Virus record (IMG/VR): IMGVR_UViG_3300045961_000077
Span: 1-23,196 of that record
Length of the DNA stretch: 23,196 nt
Origin: a virus
Strand: one strand, 5' to 3'
This document shows, one piece after another, positions 1,817 to 10,477 of the stretch. Under the pieces are notes generated by a model that saw nothing but the letters and a program-made list of their open reading frames with translations, had not been told where the DNA came from and did no database searches. How positions within the stretch are numbered: position 1 is the stretch's first letter; every line of letters starts with the position of its first letter. A program made the position numbers and the translations under genes.

Positions 1817-3208
1817 TCAGGACAGTTCGCTCAGGATCTGATCCAACGTCTTGCTTCCGCCGAACTTCTCGATGAGGGCTTCGACTGCCGCCTTCGTGGA
1901 ATCGTCGTCTGCCAAGATCGCGATCTTCATCGCGTTCGTGTCGCGAGCGACGTACATGGCGGACTTGGGGGATCGACCCTTGGACTTCGCCGCATCCACC
2001 AGAGGCTTTGCCTTCGCCGCCTGCTTCCTCCTCCCCTCAGGGGTCTTGGACTGTTGGGAGGGCTTGATGTGGGAGAGGATCTCTTCGACCTCCTCCTTCT
2101 CGACCTCCTCCTTGATCTCAGCAGCGGCGATCAGCGCGGTGGCCTTCTTGATGCTCTCCTTGGTCTCCGCATCCTTCGACGCCATGGTCACCCGGTACCG
2201 GTCGGCGTACCGCTCGATGGTGCTCTTGCCCCATCCCGTGAGAAACGTCGCGATGTCTCGGTAGGACCACCCTGCGTCGTTGTAGGCCACCCAGCGGATG
2301 ATCTCCTCCTCCGTGGGGGAGGTAGGCGCTTGGTTGTCCGACACCTTGGCGAGGACCTTGCTGACAGTCTTCTGGGAGACACCTACTTCACTGGCGATCT
2401 TTTCCTGAGACCAGCCCTCAGCCGCCAGTTGTGCGATGTACGCGTCGCGGGCGGACTCCGACTGGTCCTTGGAGGTCACGTAGACCTCGTGGTGGATGCG
2501 CTGGAGAAGAGCCTCGGTCGCTGTGGTTCTCGCTGGAAGCCACTCGATGCGGGGCTCGATCCCCATCGACTCCAGCAGTTCCTTGCGGGTCTGCCCGTTG
2601 ATGACGATGGGGTCCGCACCCATGTTGGGCGGCTGCCACATCCGGATCGGGTCCAACTGGCCGACCGTCTCCAGAGACTTCTTGAGCAGCGCCTTCTTAG
2701 CCCGGTCGGGCTTCCTCCGGGCCGGGTTGGTCTTGGCACGAAGAGTCTCCAGAGCCTTGGAGTTTCCCTCCTTCATGATGACGGAGGACACCCCAGACTC
2801 ACCACCGACGGACTGCAACGCCGTGTGCTCGGGGGGACAGGACCCGATTGTGAGCAGCCCAGCCGCATCACGCTTCAGGTACTCGTTGTCGAGTCCGAAA
2901 GCGATCTCCTGATCCATGTGCCAGCGGTTGGCGTCATGGAGCAGATTCGCGTCCTTCTCGTACGCCTTGGGGTCTGTTCCGGGGTGCATCCGGAGGTATG
3001 CGCGCCACGACCCACCAGAAGCGAATACCAGCCCCATGTAGATGTCGTTGTCGCTGATCGGGCCGAAGATCGCGACGCGATCCCAGACCTTGTAGAGGAG
3101 GCGCTGACGGGACGGGTTGAAGTCGTCCCCCGCCTCCTCAGCCACGGGTGGCGGGGGAGGGGCCGGGATCTCCGACCCCTCCACCACCGTGATGACGTCG
3201 GCAGACAT
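1817..3208 (-). CDS. Large ParB-like protein with two helix-turn-helix units (ParB2)
   Basis: 463 residues from the ATG at 3208, which overlaps the stop of the upstream gene as ATGA; a longer reading from 3313 would run 105 bases into that gene and is rejected. A proline-rich stretch (about 15-22) precedes a ParB N-terminal-like domain at about 180-245, with INGQTRKELLE (203-212) in the position of the ParB (D/N)GxxR motif. Two helix-turn-helix candidates follow, at about 265-290 (GWSQEKIASEVGVSQKTVSK) and 313-340 (GWSYRDIATFLTGWGKSTIE). A charged, coiled-coil-like stretch (345-405) and a short C-terminal helical domain complete it. Residues 1-175 match nothing I recognise. ParB-family proteins bind centromere-like sites and may slide as CTP clamps; partition, regulatory or nuclease roles are all possible. 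No ParA is encoded here. Confidence 0.65.
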   Translation of the reverse strand: MSADVITVVEGSEIPAPPPPPVAEEAGDDFNPSRQRLLYKVWDRVAIFGPISDNDIYMGLVFASGGSWRAYLRMHPGTDPKAYEKDANLLHDANRWHMDQEIAFGLDNEYLKRDAAGLLTIGSCPPEHTALQSVGGESGVSSVIMKEGNSKALETLRAKTNPARRKPDRAKKALLKKSLETVGQLDPIRMWQPPNMGADPIVINGQTRKELLESMGIEPRIEWLPARTTATEALLQRIHHEVYVTSKDQSESARDAYIAQLAAEGWSQEKIASEVGVSQKTVSKVLAKVSDNQAPTSPTEEEIIRWVAYNDAGWSYRDIATFLTGWGKSTIERYADRYRVTMASKDAETKESIKKATALIAAAEIKEEVEKEEVEEILSHIKPSQQSKTPEGRRKQAAKAKPLVDAAKSKGRSPKSAMYVARDTNAMKIAILADDDSTKAAVEALIEKFGGSKTLDQILSELS

Positions 3209-4179
3209 CAGTGGCTGACCTCTGCGGTCTCGATGACGCTGTTCAGCCAGTCCCGCACGGAGGTGTACTTCTCCAGCAGATCGGCACGACGGGCATCGTC
3301 CACCGGGATCCACTGCTCCGGAGCCGGGTTGGCGTCCTTCACGCTGAGGATCAGGCCCATCGCCATGGAGATGCGACCGATGGGCTGGTTCTTGACCACC
3401 CGGCCAGTCTTCTTGGCCGTGATCTGGGCGGCGCGGTCCGAACGGGCCTCAGCCACGACGCGCAGGCGGTCGGCCTCGGAACCCTGCTTGCTGATCTCGT
3501 TGCACAGGTGGCGGATCTCGGTCTGCTTCATGTCCGAGTCGATGATCAGGTTCGCGAGGTCGCGCTTGACGGCAGTGTCCGCCAACTTGGCGAGGGACAC
3601 CTTTGCGGAGTCCGCGATGGCAACCGGGTCGATGCCCAGCGCGGTCAACTCACCCGTGACGCGGTGGATGTTCTGGACGCTGCTGACCATCTGGACGGTC
3701 AGGCCGTAGTCCTTCGCCAACTGCTCGTTGGTGGGCGGGTTGTCCATCAGACCCGCCGCGATGACCGCGTGGTGGATCTCCTCCTTGGAGAGCCGCTGGC
3801 CGTGGGTGGCGTTGAAGATGGCCGAGACGTAGATGGCCTCGTTGGAGTCGCTGACGTTCACGATGTAGGCATCAACGGTCGTCTCCTTGCGAGCCTTCTT
3901 GGCCTCGACGCGGGTGTTGCCATCCACGATGCCGTAGCCCTCGTAGCCGTCCTCCCAGAGGATGACCGGCGGGAAGATGGCTCCCTGCTTCATCTTCTCG
4001 ACGTACTCCTTGACGAGGGCCTTGTCCGTGTCGCGGAGACGGGACTGGCTCTCCTTGTGGCGCTCGATCTCGGTGATCAGGACGACGCCCTTGTAGGTGA
4101 AGGTCACGCCATGGGCGGTGAGGATCTGCTCGATGTCTGCCCGACGGTTGTCGGTCTTCGCAGTGCGAACGGTGCTCAT
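3208..4179 (-). CDS. ParB-like protein (ParB1)
   Basis: 323 residues from the ATG at 4179; a TTG at 4188 with AAAGG close upstream is an alternative adding three residues. The ParB/sulfiredoxin-like N-terminal domain spans about 30-110: IERHKESQSR, then FPPVILWEDG and the nucleotide/phosphate motif IVDGNTRVEA (84-93). A helix-turn-helix follows at about 150-172 (TNEQLAKDYGLTVQMVSSVQ). The remainder is helical and charged. This is the first gene of a leftward two-gene operon and its stop overlaps the ParB2 start. One exact TTCGCANTGCGAA palindrome (4157-4169) lies within its first codons, read VRTAK. That placement suggests self-regulation or loading from its own gene (inference). Family membership is well supported; the function in this phage is not. 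Confidence 0.75.
   Translation of the reverse strand: MSTVRTAKTDNRRADIEQILTAHGVTFTYKGVVLITEIERHKESQSRLRDTDKALVKEYVEKMKQGAIFPPVILWEDGYEGYGIVDGNTRVEAKKARKETTVDAYIVNVSDSNEAIYVSAIFNATHGQRLSKEEIHHAVIAAGLMDNPPTNEQLAKDYGLTVQMVSSVQNIHRVTGELTALGIDPVAIADSAKVSLAKLADTAVKRDLANLIIDSDMKQTEIRHLCNEISKQGSEADRLRVVAEARSDRAAQITAKKTGRVVKNQPIGRISMAMGLILSVKDANPAPEQWIPVDDARRADLLEKYTSVRDWLNSVIETAEVSH
4157..4169. repeat. Dispersed palindrome site 3 (exact)
   Basis: TTCGCAGTGCGAA, codons 4-8 of the first ParB-like gene on the minus strand, read V-R-T-A-K. It sits just downstream of the predicted leftward start, a natural place for a roadblock. Confidence 0.8.
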
Positions 4180-4286
4180 AGGGATCAATGAGCCTTTCTG
4201 GTACCACGATCTGTGGTCCGGGTTGTGTTGACGATCAGGAACTCTGATGTCCCTGTCGTAGCCACCCTTGTGAGCGACTGGGGATG

Positions 4287-4457: not shown

Positions 4458-4548
4458 GAGGGGCCGAAAATCTCACATATTGAGACAAGGAAGGGAGCCT
4501 CAGGGGTCCCGGCGGCGGTGGTATAGGGTGTGGCCCACCGCACAAAAG

Positions 4549-4580
4549 GAACCGCCCCCCGGTTTCCCAGAGGGCGGTTC
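4549..4580. terminator. Hairpin; possible terminator in the leftward direction
   Basis: GAACCGCCC (4549-4557) pairs perfectly with GGGCGGTTC (4572-4580). On the minus strand the stem is followed by CTTTTGTG, a short U-run, so it could stop leftward transcription. On the plus strand it is part of the structured leader of the initiator gene. Confidence 0.4.
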
Positions 4581-4590
4581 GAGAGACTGG

Positions 4591-4690
4591 AACCGGTTAG
4601 CGCCGGTTGACAGTCGAAACTGGAGAAGCCGCTCCAGTGCGATGTGGGTACATCCTACATCCCACGGTGGCCTCTCCCGAACAGAGAGGC
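4591..4690 (+). promoter_or_regulatory. Three consecutive hairpins in the initiator leader
   Basis: Perfect inverted repeats: AACCGG (4591-4596)/CCGGTT (4603-4608), ACTGGAG (4619-4625)/CTCCAGT (4632-4638), and GCCTCTC (4670-4676)/GAGAGGC (4684-4690). The last ends right before the AAGGAAAG ribosome site and could tune translation of the initiator. Confidence 0.45.
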
Positions 4691-4698
4691 AAGGAAAG

Positions 4699-5658
4699 TT
4701 GAGCGTCACCCTCATCAAGCAAGCCCGTGATGACCGGGATGACCGACTCACGCCTGCCCTCAAGTTCACCCTGATGACGGTGGCGTCCCATCACTCCGAG
4801 AAGCACCCGGAGTCCGGCACGGGCATCACCAACAAGCGGTTGGCCGAGGACATGGGCGTGGATGTCCGCACTGTCCAGCGCAATCTGACTGCGCTCGTAT
4901 CCGTGGGCAAGATCACCATCGAAGCGTCTTCCCACCCCCGCCGACGGGGCAGGATCTACATGTCTCAAGCGACACCAACGTCGCTTGCGAAGGATATTCA
5001 AGCGACACCAACGTCGCTTGCGAAGGATATTCAAGCGACACCAGCGTCGCTTTCAAGCGACACCAGTGTCGCTCCTAGCGACACCAGTGTCGCTTCTATG
5101 CGTCAAGGCTCTAATCAAGGAAGAACTATCAAGGCAGAATCAAAGACGTCCGCGCCCTCCGGGCACGGAGGAAGGACGGACATGCCAGTCATCGGGGCGC
5201 TGGACGACGACGCGGAGATGCCGGAGGCAGGGGCTCCGCCCGCCCGGAGGAAGAAGCCGTTCGCGGAGGCCCCGACGGAGGGCACCCATGCTTGGGTGGT
5301 CTACCGGTTCGAGCAGGCCATGCGCCGGGAGCAGTGCGGACGGCACGGGTTCAACAAGGGCGTCCTGAACGCCACGCTCAAGGCGCTCCGGGAGGAGGGC
5401 TTCAAGAACGCCGAGATCGACCAGATGGTCTCGGTCTTCTGGGCCCGACAGGGATCGGTGATCCGGGGCAAGAAGGAACTGGACGTGGCGGTGGCCTTCC
5501 GCCACCACCTCCCGCAGTTGAAGGAAGCCACCGAGGCGGAGATCCGTCTCAAGCGGAGCGGCAAGAAGACCAGCGCCGAGATCGGATCGGCACTGGGTTC
5601 GGAACTGAAGGATCGGCTGATGAGGTTGGCCGAGGAGAACAGGAGCGCAAGTGCATAA
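4699..5658 (+). CDS. Winged-helix replication initiator-like protein (lambda O-like layout)
   Basis: 319 residues from a TTG at 4699 preceded by GAGGCAAGGAAAG. A winged helix-turn-helix spans about 18-88 (TNKRLAEDMGVDVRTVQRNL, then a basic wing HPRRRGRIY). Residues 90-133 are a low-complexity linker (ATPTSLAKDIQ twice, then SSDTSVA) whose DNA is an array of five palindromes. A disordered basic stretch precedes a helical C-terminal domain at about 190-319. N-terminal DNA-binding, iterons in the middle and a C-terminal partner domain mirror lambda O, and the next gene is a DnaC-like loader as lambda P follows O. I infer an origin-binding initiator; the C-terminal contact with the loader or helicase is unproven. 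It heads the rightward operon and overlaps the next gene by 8 nt. Confidence 0.65.
   Translation: MSVTLIKQARDDRDDRLTPALKFTLMTVASHHSEKHPESGTGITNKRLAEDMGVDVRTVQRNLTALVSVGKITIEASSHPRRRGRIYMSQATPTSLAKDIQATPTSLAKDIQATPASLSSDTSVAPSDTSVASMRQGSNQGRTIKAESKTSAPSGHGGRTDMPVIGALDDDAEMPEAGAPPARRKKPFAEAPTEGTHAWVVYRFEQAMRREQCGRHGFNKGVLNATLKALREEGFKNAEIDQMVSVFWARQGSVIRGKKELDVAVAFRHHLPQLKEATEAEIRLKRSGKKTSAEIGSALGSELKDRLMRLAEENRSASA
4966..5031 (+). repeat. Two tandem identical 33-bp direct repeats
   Basis: Units 4966-4998 and 4999-5031 are identical and each carries one iteron palindrome followed by GCGAAGGATATT. A third, partial unit begins at 5032. Because 33 is a multiple of three, the repeat stays in frame and duplicates the peptide QATPTSLAKDI. 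Confidence 0.9.
4968..5094. other. Iteron array: candidate replication origin
   Basis: Five 18-bp hyphenated palindromes AGCGAC-N6-GTCGCT at 4968-4985, 5001-5018, 5034-5051, 5056-5073 and 5077-5094. The centres are ACCAAC (twice), ACCAGC, and ACCAGT (twice); in the last two copies the arms extend to 8 bp. Start spacing is 33, 33, 22 and 21 bp, about three and two helical turns, so all copies would face the same side of the DNA. Iterons inside an initiator gene followed by an AT-rich region is the established layout of the lambda origin in O. That they are bound by the encoded protein is inference. Confidence 0.7.
5095..5147. other. AT-rich segment beside the iterons (candidate DNA-unwinding element)
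   Basis: These 53 bases are about 40% G+C, in a neighbourhood well above 60%. They contain direct repeats TCAAGG at 5103-5108, 5115-5120 and 5129-5134 and a related TCAAAG at 5140-5145, all starting 11-14 bases apart. Confidence 0.5.
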
Positions 5659-6364
5659 GCCAAGGAAGCCCTACCACAAGCCCGGCGGGTACCCCACGGA
5701 TCACCTGATCCACGATTTGGACGACGATGCGCTGTTGGCGCACATGGGTGTTCCGCTGAAGTACATCCCGTTCGTCCACGACACGGAACTACCGGATGAG
5801 GCCGGAGCGTGGCTGGAGAACCTGCCGTACATCTTCCGCCCGTCCTTCGAGAACCTGCGGAAGGGCATGTGCGGGACTGGATTGATCCTCAGCGGTCCCG
5901 GATCCACCCGGAAGACCACCACGGCGGCAGCCATCCTCCTCGCTGCGGTCAGGGCCGAGATCCCCAACACCGATCCGACCGGACGGAACTTCACATGGCA
6001 CGGGGCAGCCATGGGTCGATTCGTGGACTGGCAGGAGGCCAGCGAACTCTTTCGCAGTGCGAACCACGATGATGAGGCGGCGGAGGCCGCAGCGGCGATC
6101 CGCGAGCCCATGCACCCGTCCGGTCCGATGACCGAGCGCGGAGACTTCCTCGTGATCGATGACATCAGCCGTGAGCGACCCACGGAGTACAACGCCGGAG
6201 AGTTGCAGCGGATCATCCGCCGTCGGTCCGACAACGGCTACCCGACCATCCTGACCACCAACCACTCGCCTCATGACTGGGCCAAGAACCACGGCGACGT
6301 GCTCGCGGGGTTCCTGTCTCGGTCCTTTGTCACCATCGAGTTCTTCGGAGATACCAATGGCTGA
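5651..6364 (+). CDS. DnaC-like helicase loader ATPase
   Basis: 237 residues from GTG 5651 with AGGAG five bases upstream, overlapping the initiator stop. It is an AAA+ protein of the DnaC/IstB type. The P-loop is GPGSTRKTT (82-90), Walker B is FLVIDDIS (about 166-173, D170-D171), and a sensor-like ILTTNH lies near 203-208. Such proteins place the replicative helicase on DNA, and DnaB is encoded three genes on. The residue before the P-loop lysine is Arg87 where the family has glycine, an oddity noted under findings. One dispersed palindrome (6051-6063) lies in the coding sequence as FRSAN. Family call is firm; ATP hydrolysis is uncertain because of the P-loop change. Confidence 0.8.
   Translation: MHKPRKPYHKPGGYPTDHLIHDLDDDALLAHMGVPLKYIPFVHDTELPDEAGAWLENLPYIFRPSFENLRKGMCGTGLILSGPGSTRKTTTAAAILLAAVRAEIPNTDPTGRNFTWHGAAMGRFVDWQEASELFRSANHDDEAAEAAAAIREPMHPSGPMTERGDFLVIDDISRERPTEYNAGELQRIIRRRSDNGYPTILTTNHSPHDWAKNHGDVLAGFLSRSFVTIEFFGDTNG
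6051..6063. repeat. Dispersed palindrome site 4 (exact)
   Basis: TTCGCAGTGCGAA inside the loader gene, read F-R-S-A-N. Confidence 0.8.
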
Positions 6365-6746
6365 CGCCCCCTACGTGGAACTCCGGGCAGCGGAGGACCG
6401 CGCGGACTGCACCTCGTGCGGAACCACGGACGCTGCCTGCACCAAGAAGGTCGTCGGGGGCGGCAAGGCATGCTGCTCCCAGTGCGCGTACACCGACACC
6501 CACCCGAAGCCAGAAGTGGAGAACCCCGTGAACGACCCGGTCAACTCGCCCAGCCACTACACCGCCTACAAGGGGCTGGAGATCATCGACCTCACGGAGC
6601 AGATGAACTTCAACCGGGGCAACGCCGTGAAGTACATCGCCCGCGCCGGACTGAAGAACCCGACCCGTGACGCGGAGATCGAGGATCTGAAGAAGGCCCG
6701 CTGGTACATCGACCGTGAGATCGCCCGTCTGGAGGCGTCCGAGTGA
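6357..6746 (+). CDS. DUF3310 (SaV-like) protein with N-terminal Cys cluster
   Basis: 129 residues from ATG 6357 with GGAG at 6347-6350, overlapping the loader stop. The C-terminal half is the DUF3310 domain common in phage replication regions: VNSPSHYTAYKGLEIID, then NRGNAVKYIARAG and a helical EDLKKARWYIDREIARLE. Residues 18-43 carry five cysteines (C18, C21, C28, C39/C40, C43) arranged like a zinc ribbon, which is not part of the usual short DUF3310 protein. The biochemical role of the domain is not established; a nucleotide-metabolism or replication accessory role is usually presumed. Confidence 0.75.
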   Translation: MADAPYVELRAAEDRADCTSCGTTDAACTKKVVGGGKACCSQCAYTDTHPKPEVENPVNDPVNSPSHYTAYKGLEIIDLTEQMNFNRGNAVKYIARAGLKNPTRDAEIEDLKKARWYIDREIARLEASE

Positions 6747-7165
6747 AGGACAACGACCTGAGCGCCAGCCTGACCTACCGGTACTGGGTGCTGGCCGAGG
6801 TGGTCTTCCGATCCGATGAGACGACCACCACGAGCAAGACGGGCTGGTTCAAGAGCCTGCGGACCTCGCGGATCACCGTGATGCCTGACCTGATGACGCT
6901 GAGCATGCTGTGGCAGTTCAGCGTCTCGTCGGGGGCCCGGATGGAGTTGGTCTTCATCGGCGACTACGCCCGCGATGCGGTCTCCCTCTGGGAGATGCTG
7001 GAGAAGTCTGCCGCCAACCCGTTCTACGACTGGCATGCGATGGAGGACACCAACAAGATCCTCGAAGTCCTGCCCTACCGACCCGACCTGCTGGGGATCA
7101 TCGACCTTCCCGAGCGCAGCGCCCGGTACGGCGGCAAGGGCCTGACCACCGCGAACCTGCACTAG
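6743..7165 (+). CDS. Hypothetical protein
   Basis: 140 residues from GTG 6743, which overlaps the previous stop as GTGA. The N-terminal half looks beta-rich (LTYRYWVLAEVVFRS; SRITVMPDL) and the middle helical (SLWEMLEKSAANPFYDW). No catalytic motif, signal or membrane segment is visible and I do not recognise the family. It sits between the DUF3310 gene and DnaB in the same tight operon, so a replication accessory role is possible but unsupported by sequence. Confidence 0.6.
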   Translation: MKDNDLSASLTYRYWVLAEVVFRSDETTTTSKTGWFKSLRTSRITVMPDLMTLSMLWQFSVSSGARMELVFIGDYARDAVSLWEMLEKSAANPFYDWHAMEDTNKILEVLPYRPDLLGIIDLPERSARYGGKGLTTANLH

Positions 7166-7173
7166 GAGCACCC

Positions 7174-9429
7174 GTGCCACTGAGCAATGAGCAGCGGATC
7201 ATCTCCAAGATCATCACGGAGAAGGATCTGCGCCCCGTTCTGGATCGCGGGGTCACCCCCGCGTGGTTGTACGTACCGGAGCACAAGGACGCACTGAAGT
7301 TCATCCTCGAACACCACGAGAAGTACGGAAACGTCCCGTCGAAGACGACGATGCACCACCACTTCGGCGGCTCCTACAAGATCGTCAACGTCCCGGAGAC
7401 GCTGGACTACCTCCTCGATGAGTGCGCCACCCACTGCCGGTGGATGCACACCAAGGCGACCGTTCAGGACGTGGCGGATCGTCTCAAGGCGAGTGAGACC
7501 GAGGACGCGATCAAGGAGATGGAGGAGGGGCTGGCCCGGATCCGGTCCTTCTCCCCCACCACGACCCATCTGGTCAACTCGATGGACAACGCTCGACTCG
7601 ATGAGCGCTGGGAGGAGTACGACTCGCGGGCCTCCTCGACAGGTCTGCTGGGGTACGCGACCGGCTTCCCCACCATCGACGCGGCCACACTGGGTCTCCA
7701 GAACGGCCAGTTGATCACCGTGCTGGCCCAGCACAAGGTCGGCAAAGGGTTGAGGCATGGAACCCCGGTGAAGACCCCCACAGGCTGGATGCCCATCGAG
7801 GATCTTCGTGAGGGAGATCTGGTAGTCGGCGGGGACGGTCTTCCTACGAAGGTGGTCGGTGTGTTCCCTCGCGGTGTGCTTCCCATGTATCGCGTCACCA
7901 CCAATGACGGTCGTTGGGTGGATGTGGATCCGGAGCACCTGTGGACCGTTCATCCGCGAGGGATGAAGCCTCAAACCGTGGACACTCTGACTTTGTTGGA
8001 GAAGATCTCGTGGAGGAACTACGGGTTCCTGCCCATGACCGTGGATCACTCCTGCTCTGAGACCTCTCCCGTGGATCCCTACCTGCTCGGACTGTTGCTC
8101 GGGGATGGGCAGATGGGGAGCAGCACCATCGCATTCTGCAAGCCGGATCCGGAACTCCATCGGACTATCGAGTCCATCACGGGATCAGTCCTCACATCGT
8201 CTCCGGGTAAGTTCCACAACACATGGAGGATCCCGGACGGCGGAGCGCTGCGACGTGAACTGGATGATCTCGGACTGATCGGAAAGACCTCACTGGAGAA
8301 GTTCATCCCCGAGGTCTACTTCCAGACTTCTGTGGGGGATCGGTTCGCACTGCTTCAAGGGCTGTTGGATACCGATGGCGGGGTCGAGGGACGGACAACC
8401 ACGTTCTCTTCTTCATCCCTTGATCTGGCGCAGGGAGTGGTCGCACTGGTCCGAAGCCTTGGAGGTACCGCACACTTCAGCACCAAGAAGGAGCCGAAGT
8501 ACACATACCGGGGCGAGACCCGAGTGGGTTCGACTGCGTATCGAGTGCGGGTTCGTCTTCCTGAAGAGTTCGGGTGTCCATTCCGACTGACACGGAAGCG
8601 GGATTCGTGGCTCGGGACAGGCACCAAGAAGCGCCGCCCTCTCACCAAGGTGATCTCTGTGGAGCCAGTGGATCCGGGGGAGGTAACGTGCATCAAGGTC
8701 GCCAACGAAGATGGCTTGTTTGTGACCAAGGACTTTGTCGTCACGCATAACACCAGCCTCTGTCTGGCGATGGGCAACAACGTCTACGTCGAGCACAAGG
8801 TCCCGATCCTGTTCGTGACCTTCGAGATGGGCGTGCGCGAGTTGGAGATGCGTCAGGAGTCCCTGATGGCGAAGATCAACTTCCGCAGGCTCCAGCAGGG
8901 CGCGCTGACCGCACTGGAGGAGAAGAAGTACTCCGACTGGCTGGACATGGCCCAGACGGACTACACGTGGCCGTACCACTTCATGGACGTCTCCAGCGGA
9001 GCCACGGTCAGCAGCGTGGAGGCGCAGGCGGTCCGGTACGACCCGGCGGTGATCTTCGTGGACGGCATCTACATGATGCGTGACGAGGTCACGGGCGACG
9101 TGAACACGTGGGAGGCGATCACCAACATCACCCGGTCGCTCAAGCGGCTGGCGACCCGTCTGGACAAGCCCATCGTGATCAACTCGCAGGCCCTGCACAG
9201 CAAGTCCAAGGGCAAGCGAATCTCATCCGAGAGCGCGGGCTACTCCTCGTCGTTCGGACAGGACTCCGATGTTCTTCTCGGGCTTGAGAGGATCCAGCCC
9301 GGCAAGGGCGAGGACGACTCTGCCTACGCCTACCAGCGGATCCTCCGCATCCTCGACTCGCGCAACACCGGGACTGCGGAGGTCGAACTGACCTTCGACT
9401 ACGACGCCGGACTCATCGAGGAGGTCTAG
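7174..9429 (+). CDS. dnaB: Replicative DnaB-like helicase interrupted by an intein
   Basis: The precursor is 751 residues from GTG 7174 (AGGAG at 7164-7168). Residues 1-191 and 527-751 join after splicing to a 416-residue RecA-fold helicase. Joining restores the Walker A motif (HKVGK + TSLCLA); Walker B is VIFVDGIYMM (about 626-635), and VINSQAL (668-674) is a further motif. An N-terminal helical domain (1-150) resembles the DnaB primase/loader-interaction region. The protein should unwind the fork as a hexamer, loaded by the DnaC-like protein and working with the primase two genes on. Insertion exactly in the P-loop means the helicase is inactive until splicing. The start codon is chosen because the longer frame back to 6910 overlaps the preceding gene and lacks a ribosome site. 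Confidence 0.88.
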   Translation: MPLSNEQRIISKIITEKDLRPVLDRGVTPAWLYVPEHKDALKFILEHHEKYGNVPSKTTMHHHFGGSYKIVNVPETLDYLLDECATHCRWMHTKATVQDVADRLKASETEDAIKEMEEGLARIRSFSPTTTHLVNSMDNARLDERWEEYDSRASSTGLLGYATGFPTIDAATLGLQNGQLITVLAQHKVGKGLRHGTPVKTPTGWMPIEDLREGDLVVGGDGLPTKVVGVFPRGVLPMYRVTTNDGRWVDVDPEHLWTVHPRGMKPQTVDTLTLLEKISWRNYGFLPMTVDHSCSETSPVDPYLLGLLLGDGQMGSSTIAFCKPDPELHRTIESITGSVLTSSPGKFHNTWRIPDGGALRRELDDLGLIGKTSLEKFIPEVYFQTSVGDRFALLQGLLDTDGGVEGRTTTFSSSSLDLAQGVVALVRSLGGTAHFSTKKEPKYTYRGETRVGSTAYRVRVRLPEEFGCPFRLTRKRDSWLGTGTKKRRPLTKVISVEPVDPGEVTCIKVANEDGLFVTKDFVVTHNTSLCLAMGNNVYVEHKVPILFVTFEMGVRELEMRQESLMAKINFRRLQQGALTALEEKKYSDWLDMAQTDYTWPYHFMDVSSGATVSSVEAQAVRYDPAVIFVDGIYMMRDEVTGDVNTWEAITNITRSLKRLATRLDKPIVINSQALHSKSKGKRISSESAGYSSSFGQDSDVLLGLERIQPGKGEDDSAYAYQRILRILDSRNTGTAEVELTFDYDAGLIEEV
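7747..8751 (+). other. Class 3 (WCT-type) intein with LAGLIDADG endonuclease, in DnaB
   Basis: 335 residues, G192 to N526 of the precursor. Block A reads GLRHGTPVKT, with glycine instead of the usual Cys/Ser at position 1. Block B has DPEHLWTV (His255, Trp257). Block F has VTCIKV with Cys506 where most inteins have Asp. Block G is FVVTHN (Thr524, His525, Asn526) followed by Thr527. The Trp/Cys/Thr set and missing N-terminal nucleophile define class 3 inteins, known from mycobacteriophage Bethlehem DnaB. Endonuclease motifs LLGLLLGDG (about 304-312) and LLQGLLDTDGG (393-403) keep their acidic residues, so homing may be active. Third codon positions contain visibly more A and T than the exteins, suggesting separate ancestry. 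Confidence 0.85.
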
Positions 9430-9549
9430 ATGCGAGGCAGCGAGAAGTGCATCTGCACTCACACCTACAGCAGCCATAGTTTGTCGGGAGTTTGTCTCGC
9501 CTGCGGGTGCGACACGTTCGAGAAGAGTGACCGTGGATCGACTTCCTGA
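9430..9549 (+). CDS. 39-residue Cys/His-rich small protein
   Basis: ATG 9430 directly follows the DnaB stop (TAG at 9427-9429) and the frame ends at TGA 9549, overlapping the primase start. The peptide has C7-x-C9-x-H11, H16 and C22-x2-C25-x-C27, a pattern that could hold one zinc ion. Upstream GAGGTCTAG gives a usable ribosome site from within dnaB. Short length leaves room for chance, but the cysteine spacing and the tight fit between two genes support it. A small zinc-knuckle partner of DNA or a replication protein is only a guess. Confidence 0.5.
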   Translation: MRGSEKCICTHTYSSHSLSGVCLACGCDTFEKSDRGSTS

Positions 9550-10477
9550 GGGAGCGGTTGCGGCCACGCTTGCTGATCTGGGCGTCGAGGTTCTGACCGA
9601 GGATGGCGACGAGTTGGTCGCCCTGTGCCCCGGACATGAGGCGCGGACCGGCAAGAAGGATGGCCACCCGTCGTGGTCGATCAACGGCGAGACCGGGATC
9701 CACTTCTGCTTCTCGTGCCACTACAAGGGCAATCTCATCACGCTGGTGCGGGACCTCAAGGGCACCGATGCAGCGGCGAGGTTCCGGTCGGAGTTCGACA
9801 CTCACAAGCGGCTGGTGTCCGAGGATCACGACTTCGAGGTGGTCATCGACAAGCCGGTCGCCGAGGAGGTTCGCACTGCGAACTTTCGCCCGGAGTCGTG
9901 GCTGTACGACTTCGATGAGCCCCCGCTCTGGGCTCGACAGGCTCGCCGGATCAGCGCAACCGGTGCCAAGGAGTACGAGGTGCTGTGGGACGAGAGTCGG
10001 GACGCGTGGATCCTTCCGCTGCGGGATCCACACACGTCTCGTCTGCTGGGCTATCAGGTGAAGTCCCAGAAGACGAGGTTCTTCCGGAACCGTCCGAGGA
10101 CCGTCCAGAAGTCCGAGACGTTCTTTGGTTGGAATGCTGTGAGGGATGCCAAGAAGGTCGTTATCGTGGAATCTCCGCTCGATGCTGTACTATTGGCAGA
10201 TATGGACGTCCCCGCGATAGCGCTCTGCGGCTCTCGGATGAGTGACTCACAGGTCTCTCTCCTGATGGACAGCGCGTTCGAGCGGGTCGTCCTGTGGCTG
10301 GACAACGACACCGCCGGGGCCCTTGAGACGGAGCGCCTGAAGAAGGTTTTCGTGGATGTGGGCGTACAGGCGGAGTTCATCACCCCGGACTCCTATCCTC
10401 AGTTCGATTCGTGGAAGGACGTAGGGGAGATGCCAGATGAGGAGATCTTCTCCGTACTCGACGCTGCCGGGATCTGA
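9533..10477 (+). CDS. DnaG-type primase (zinc finger plus Toprim)
   Basis: 314 residues from GTG 9533 (AAGAG five bases upstream; GTG 9527 is an alternative). An N-terminal CHC2-type zinc finger has C32, H35, C59 and C62 (LCPGHE, then HFCFSCHYKGN). The Toprim domain follows with VVIVESPLDA (E213) and VVLWLDNDTAG (D257, D259), the metal-binding acids. The protein makes RNA primers at the fork for the polymerase encoded downstream. It is shorter than bacterial DnaG, lacking a C-terminal DnaB-interaction domain, which is common in phage primases. A dispersed palindrome (9870-9882) encodes VRTAN in the linker between the zinc finger and Toprim. Confidence 0.85.
   Translation: MDRLPEGAVAATLADLGVEVLTEDGDELVALCPGHEARTGKKDGHPSWSINGETGIHFCFSCHYKGNLITLVRDLKGTDAAARFRSEFDTHKRLVSEDHDFEVVIDKPVAEEVRTANFRPESWLYDFDEPPLWARQARRISATGAKEYEVLWDESRDAWILPLRDPHTSRLLGYQVKSQKTRFFRNRPRTVQKSETFFGWNAVRDAKKVVIVESPLDAVLLADMDVPAIALCGSRMSDSQVSLLMDSAFERVVLWLDNDTAGALETERLKKVFVDVGVQAEFITPDSYPQFDSWKDVGEMPDEEIFSVLDAAGI
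9870..9882. repeat. Dispersed palindrome site 5 (exact)
   Basis: TTCGCACTGCGAA inside the primase gene, read V-R-T-A-N. From here on the sites are spaced 2.8-3.0 kb apart. Confidence 0.8.

Follow-up and report, generated by a model that had tools for sequence, protein, structure and literature searches.

A candidate lambda-type replication origin built of palindromic iterons inside the initiator gene of an uncultured phage

In bacteriophage lambda the replication origin lies inside the initiator gene O, whose product carries a DNA-binding N-terminus (NC_001416; PMC7466680, PMC5043065). Inverted-repeat iterons of 18-19 bp occupy the linker, an A+T-rich, strongly strand-asymmetric segment follows as the region opened by O (PMC5043065), and the loader gene overlaps the initiator gene. 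The staphylococcal RepA_N plasmid initiator pSK41 Rep (319 aa) has an N-terminal winged helix, a central linker and a C-terminal domain; the origin, which contains four Rep boxes, codes for this linker, and the protein can do without it (PMC5703833). In the Rep_3 iteron plasmids (P1, F, RK2), phased initiator-bound repeats adjoin an A+T-rich unwinding region of short repeats (PMC5043065). For the mycobacteriophage RepA origins no repeats were found, and a position inside repA, as in lambda, was suggested (PMC7157519); in the light of that suggestion, an explicit in-gene array in a little-known lineage is useful, not surprising.

The window (the whole stretch of DNA that was analysed, 23,196 bases) is a complete IMG/VR record, a linear fragment from an uncultured phage. 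Similar DNA in phage records belonged to phages of actinobacteria and covered only 3-5% of the query, so that no host was assigned. Four relatives (L005, L006, L007 and L008) were found in IMG/VR with the loader as query; the same search with the initiator as single query returned nothing, and the loader had no match in GTDB genomes. The order along the record is O-like initiator, DnaC-like loader, DnaB and primase, and the best explanation of the whole, which we hold to be very probable, is a phage origin of the theta type that lies within the linker-coding part of the gene for its own initiator. The replication genes were:

4699..5658, plus strand, initiator gene (319 aa; TTG start, also kept in relatives)
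5651..6364, plus strand, DnaC-like AAA+ helicase loader gene (phrog_50 DnaC-like, E=7e-16; 58-69% identical in relatives)
7174..9429, plus strand, DnaB-like replicative helicase gene with an intein (DnaB_C, E=8e-22; Hint and LAGLIDADG matches)
9527..10477, plus strand, DnaG-type primase (zinc ribbon and Toprim; profile matches)

The loader gene (start 5651) follows the initiator gene (end 5658) and overlaps it by 8 bp, as in lambda. The first-pass annotation had given loader and then DnaB; that order is right, but two small ORFs (about 6360-6746 and 6743-7165) intervene between them. The DnaB intein covers about residues 192-526 and is absent from the DnaB of relatives; PHROG “terminase” matches of the DnaB-like protein arose from the intein stretch. 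The loader P-loop is GPGSTRKTT, in which Arg replaces the usual Gly (4/4 aligned sequences have Arg). A tail ORF and the initiator gene flank two genes with ParB-like matches (1817-4188, minus strand), of which tblastn found no counterparts in the contig stretches of relatives analysed. GC skew gave no clean origin signature in this 23,196-base fragment with divergent genes.

Five AGCGAC-N6-GTCGCT palindromes of 18 bp, spaced 33, 33, 22 and 21 bp, had been reported at first pass in the linker of a winged-helix protein. All five were confirmed as exact, at 4968, 5001, 5034, 5056 and 5077, with the spacings as claimed and the array within the 4699-5658 gene, between the DNA-binding and C-terminal domains of the protein. 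The pattern AGCGACNNNNNNGTCGCT has no other exact site in the whole 23,196-base record.

4968..4985, plus strand, iteron 1, AGCGACACCAACGTCGCT
5001..5018, plus strand, iteron 2, AGCGACACCAACGTCGCT
5034..5051, plus strand, iteron 3, AGCGACACCAGCGTCGCT
5056..5073, plus strand, iteron 4, AGCGACACCAGTGTCGCT
5077..5094, plus strand, iteron 5, AGCGACACCAGTGTCGCT

The arms of iterons 1 and 2 reach 8 bp (CAAGCGAC-N6-GTCGCTTG), and both iterons lie within an exact 33-bp tandem unit, in frame. Iterons 4 and 5 lengthen inwards (AGCGACAC-CA-GTGTCGCT). Synonymous-codon shuffles of the initiator gene (n=1,000) gave a mean of 0.17 sites and a maximum of 3, against the 5 observed; allowing any 5-bp arm with N6, three or more copies appeared in 1 of 2,000 shuffles. 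When the window iteron was sought as a single copy, 15 hits were returned, each with one copy, and these were taken as chance. The phasing with the helix that had been proposed is a fair description, yet approximate: with 10.5 bp to a turn, the spacings of 33, 22 and 21 bp correspond to 3.1, 2.1 and 2.0 turns. The codon frame differs between iteron 3 and iterons 4-5, the encoded residues going from ATPxSL to SDTSVA, and thus DNA, not protein, is the repeated unit.

The AT-rich stretch noted 3' of the palindromes is real as well, and stands directly after the iterons:

5097..5146, plus strand, candidate DNA unwinding element (A+T-rich, A-rich coding strand, direct repeats)

This is the most A+T-rich 50-mer in the record (60% vs. 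a mean of 37%), and its composition is strand-asymmetric: the coding strand has 21 A and 9 T (lambda is more extreme, with 28 A and 10 T), and is A-rich in all relatives too. Direct repeats of TCAAGG start at 5103, 5115 and 5129, with TCAAAG at 5140. Short direct repeats, 3-4 of them with a period of 11-14 bp, mark the A-rich segment in all lineages: TCAAGG in the window, GAACCG(TCA) in L006 and L008, and AACAGACCA in L005. In the stretches L013 (13.7 kb of the L006 contig) and L016 (15.0 kb of the L008 contig) the segment repeats were the sole such 6-mer chains. In the lambda control (NC_001416), whose iterons are inverted repeats of the same 18-19 bp class, an A-rich stretch with repeats of a similar kind comes after imperfect palindromes 20-24 bp apart.

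The initiator matched phrog_391 “replication initiation O-like” (E=2.9e-6) and, at its N-terminus, HTH_36 (E=3.4e-6). Two domains flank the array:

4699..4965, plus strand, predicted N-terminal winged-helix DNA-binding domain (AlphaFold2 model)
5161..5655, plus strand, conserved C-terminal domain of the initiator (39-43% identity in relatives), likely a contact for the loader or the helicase

In the model of the N-terminal domain (19 sequences, HTH pLDDT about 80), the predicted HTH helices are residues 45-52 and 56-69 and the wing strands residues 72-75 and 85-88; the full-length model (pLDDT 46) was too poor for use. Foldseek matches of this domain had weak E-values, none below 1e-3. The highest TM-scores listed (0.62-0.65) were for 4pt7 (“Structure of initiator”), 4pql and 5kbj (“Structure of Rep-DNA complex”), which we take to be staphylococcal RepA-type initiators, and the DnaD N-terminal domain 2v79 was also among the matches listed. 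The protein plan and the 319-aa length are those of pSK41 Rep. Pfam RepA_N (PF06970) was not matched by the window initiator, the similarity being one of fold only, and neither was Phage_rep_O (PF04492), HTH_36 being the only Pfam family that passed; matches to O-like initiators came from PHROG families. With tblastn against phage records, the window and L006 initiators had no match and that of L005 had weak matches.

Several features set the locus apart from the described systems. The iteron sequence differs from that of lambda, there are five iterons instead of four, some with 33-bp spacings, the loader is a DnaC-like AAA+ protein and not lambda P, and DnaB and primase are both phage-encoded. 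Unlike pSK41, the locus has GC-rich palindromic sites in place of Rep boxes, in a phage context with a DnaC-like loader and a phage DnaB. Iterons of Rep_3 plasmids bind monomers and, in the cases compared, are not palindromes within the initiator gene.

The anatomy of winged helix, linker iterons, A-rich segment, C-terminal domain and overlapping loader gene is retained in relatives that differ in both winged helix and palindromes. L006-L008 carry four GGGAC-N6-GTCCC-type palindromes in the same linker, one every 23 bp. The initiator genes of L006 and L008 are 97% identical, and their differences are unevenly placed: 1 of 40 positions in the arms, 12 of 24 in the spacers, 5 of 27 between palindromes and 6 of 764 in the rest of the gene (arms vs. 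spacers, Fisher P=8e-6). Ten of the 13 array codons changed are amino-acid replacements. The arms are kept while spacers and residues change, which reveals selection on the DNA at the arms. Several spacers of L008 (L008 3424-3508) are the reverse complement of those of L006 (L006 4348-4432), for example ACCCGT vs. ACGGGT, with unchanged arms, as though symmetric sites had undergone inversion or homogenisation.

Identity between the window and its relatives is 80% for DnaB, 70% for primase, 78% for helicase, 58-69% for the loader and 39-43% for the initiator C-terminal domain, and the window winged-helix domain had no tblastn match in the relatives. Since the rest of the module is conserved while the winged helix is unmatched and the palindromes differ, domain and sites change together. 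L005 is the main exception, with no exact palindrome array and two weak dyads 23 bp apart; it keeps the A-rich repeats and is a close relative in the rest of the module. An array was seen in 0 of 3 upstream genes checked in Streptomyces phages with DnaC-like loaders (L018, L019).

Pattern scans for two successive palindromes, using no protein, returned 20 stretches with GGGAC pairs in IMG/VR, 57 with GGGAC pairs in GTDB genomes and 37 with GCGAC pairs in IMG/VR. Because the search pattern dictates the GAC/GTC core common to these sets, that core does not count as evidence. The longest ORF covering each stretch was taken for family matching. The family phrog_678 “replication initiation O-like” matched 19 of 47 viral covering ORFs (11/16 and 8/31); L013 and L037, among the 16, were already known, and leaving both out gives at least 17 of 45. 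Among random ORFs of the same contigs, phrog_678 matched at most 1 of 46 and was not among the 25 families listed. In the GTDB genome set, which includes L037, HTH_36 matched 8 of 45 and Phage_rep_O 3 of 45, with winged-helix matches in Methylobacterium, Mycobacterium, Fructobacillus, Marinobacterium and others. Three Mycobacterium genome contigs (L045, L051, L063) encode winged-helix proteins whose linkers contain pairs of GGGAC-type palindromes, possibly prophage origins.

The 60 bp 3' of the array were A-rich on the coding strand in 31 of 32 winged-helix-type genes (mean A-T +13, vs. +0.5 in other hits); these 32 genes were picked by eye and include related members, so that not all are independent. 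In the set with the GC motif, spacings fell at 21-22 and 30-33 bp although 20-35 bp were allowed, which supports helical phasing. By eye, an Arg of the recognition helix (the column of window R61) was nearly invariant in winged helices with either motif, and the residue before it was often Lys or Arg with GGGAC sites and not with GCGAC sites, which is only a lead.

Other roles for the palindromes were weighed against these results. They might be bound by the initiator mainly as a control or incompatibility site, through titration or autoregulation, with replication starting elsewhere. Iteron arrays in plasmids also serve copy control, and a second origin might be found beyond the ends of this fragmentary record; the A-rich repeat segment, however, keeps the same polarity where it reappears, in lambda as in unrelated initiators, and the array has no second copy in the record, so we consider this reading improbable. 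The ParB-like proteins encoded at 1817-4188 raise the thought of centromere-like sites, their genes being adjacent and parS sites being short palindromes. Against this, L006 and L008 have equivalent arrays and no detectable ParB-like match in the contig stretches analysed, the tail ORF there runs straight into the leader and initiator, and the DNA-only scans matched initiators, not ParB neighbours; centromere function is thus very unlikely. Assignment to the ParB/parS systems, where the array stands together with a parB gene, was rejected on the relatives that have arrays and no ParB-like match.

A role in the initiator mRNA, as terminator, attenuator or mRNA-stability hairpins, would fit the stable hairpin into which each unit folds as RNA. 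What is kept, though, is arm sequence and not pairing alone, the same arms being present across the five copies and in unrelated phages; the single arm change of L008 breaks pairing with no compensation, and helical spacing classes would be meaningless for RNA hairpins. We give this role an equally slight chance. Slighter still, and close to negligible, is the chance that a protein-level tandem repeat in a disordered linker yields the palindromes incidentally. The first two units are indeed exact 33-bp in-frame repeats, but the frame and the encoded residues are different in iterons 4-5, so that a repeat of the protein could not account for the full set; moreover, residues change between L006 and L008 while the arms stay, and iterons of many other initiators sit in mixed reading frames.

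The lambda-type origin proposed at first pass is, at the level of sequence, supported by the anatomy kept in relatives, the selection on the arms, the joint change of winged helix and sites, the recurrent polarity of the A-rich segment, the lambda control and the DNA-only scans, which led to O-like initiators of unrelated phages. Read across from lambda and pSK41, its mechanism would start with the winged-helix N-terminal domain, probably as a dimer, binding each 18-bp palindrome. Initiators bound at intervals of 2-3 helical turns would bend or wrap the DNA, the neighbouring A-rich repeats (5097-5146) would melt, and the C-terminal domain would recruit the DnaC-like loader, the product of the next gene, which would load the phage's own DnaB onto the opened strand for the origin to fire. 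By this analogy, the origin would work like ori-lambda and the pSK41 origin, outside Pfam Phage_rep_O and RepA_N.

The locus is a precisely placed origin candidate in a phage lineage for whose initiator no relative could be detected in the isolated phages searched. It would mean that the layout of lambda can survive a complete change of binding site, together with a loader of the DnaC type and a helicase encoded by the phage itself. The wider recurrence in the scans is the more interesting part. Tentatively, and with more doubt than confidence, palindromic iterons and 3' A-rich repeats in winged-helix initiator genes may form one widespread origin module in phages and prophages of several bacterial phyla, its specificity switched by joint replacement of winged helix and iterons, with a shared recognition-helix arginine contacting a common half-site core. 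If so, origins of uncultured phages would be predictable from DNA alone, and the scans suggest that many could be located in the same way. The paired winged-helix/palindrome changes are a natural data set for the evolution of initiator specificity.

The region upstream of the initiator gene is also conserved:

4522..4529, plus strand, -10-like element TATAGGGT (conserved in four contigs)
4549..4698, plus strand, structured 5' leader (alignment and folds of four contigs)

The -10-like element belongs to a candidate promoter that would transcribe through the origin. The leader had no Rfam match, and its hairpin pattern was found in IMG/VR only in these four contigs. It contains a near-identical 32-nt hairpin (4549-4580) kept in all four, one with ACTGGAG/CTCCAGT arms and one directly preceding the start codon. 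This last one appears to covary (CCTCTC/GAGAGG vs. CTCCTC/GAGGAG in L005) and could mask the ribosome-binding site.
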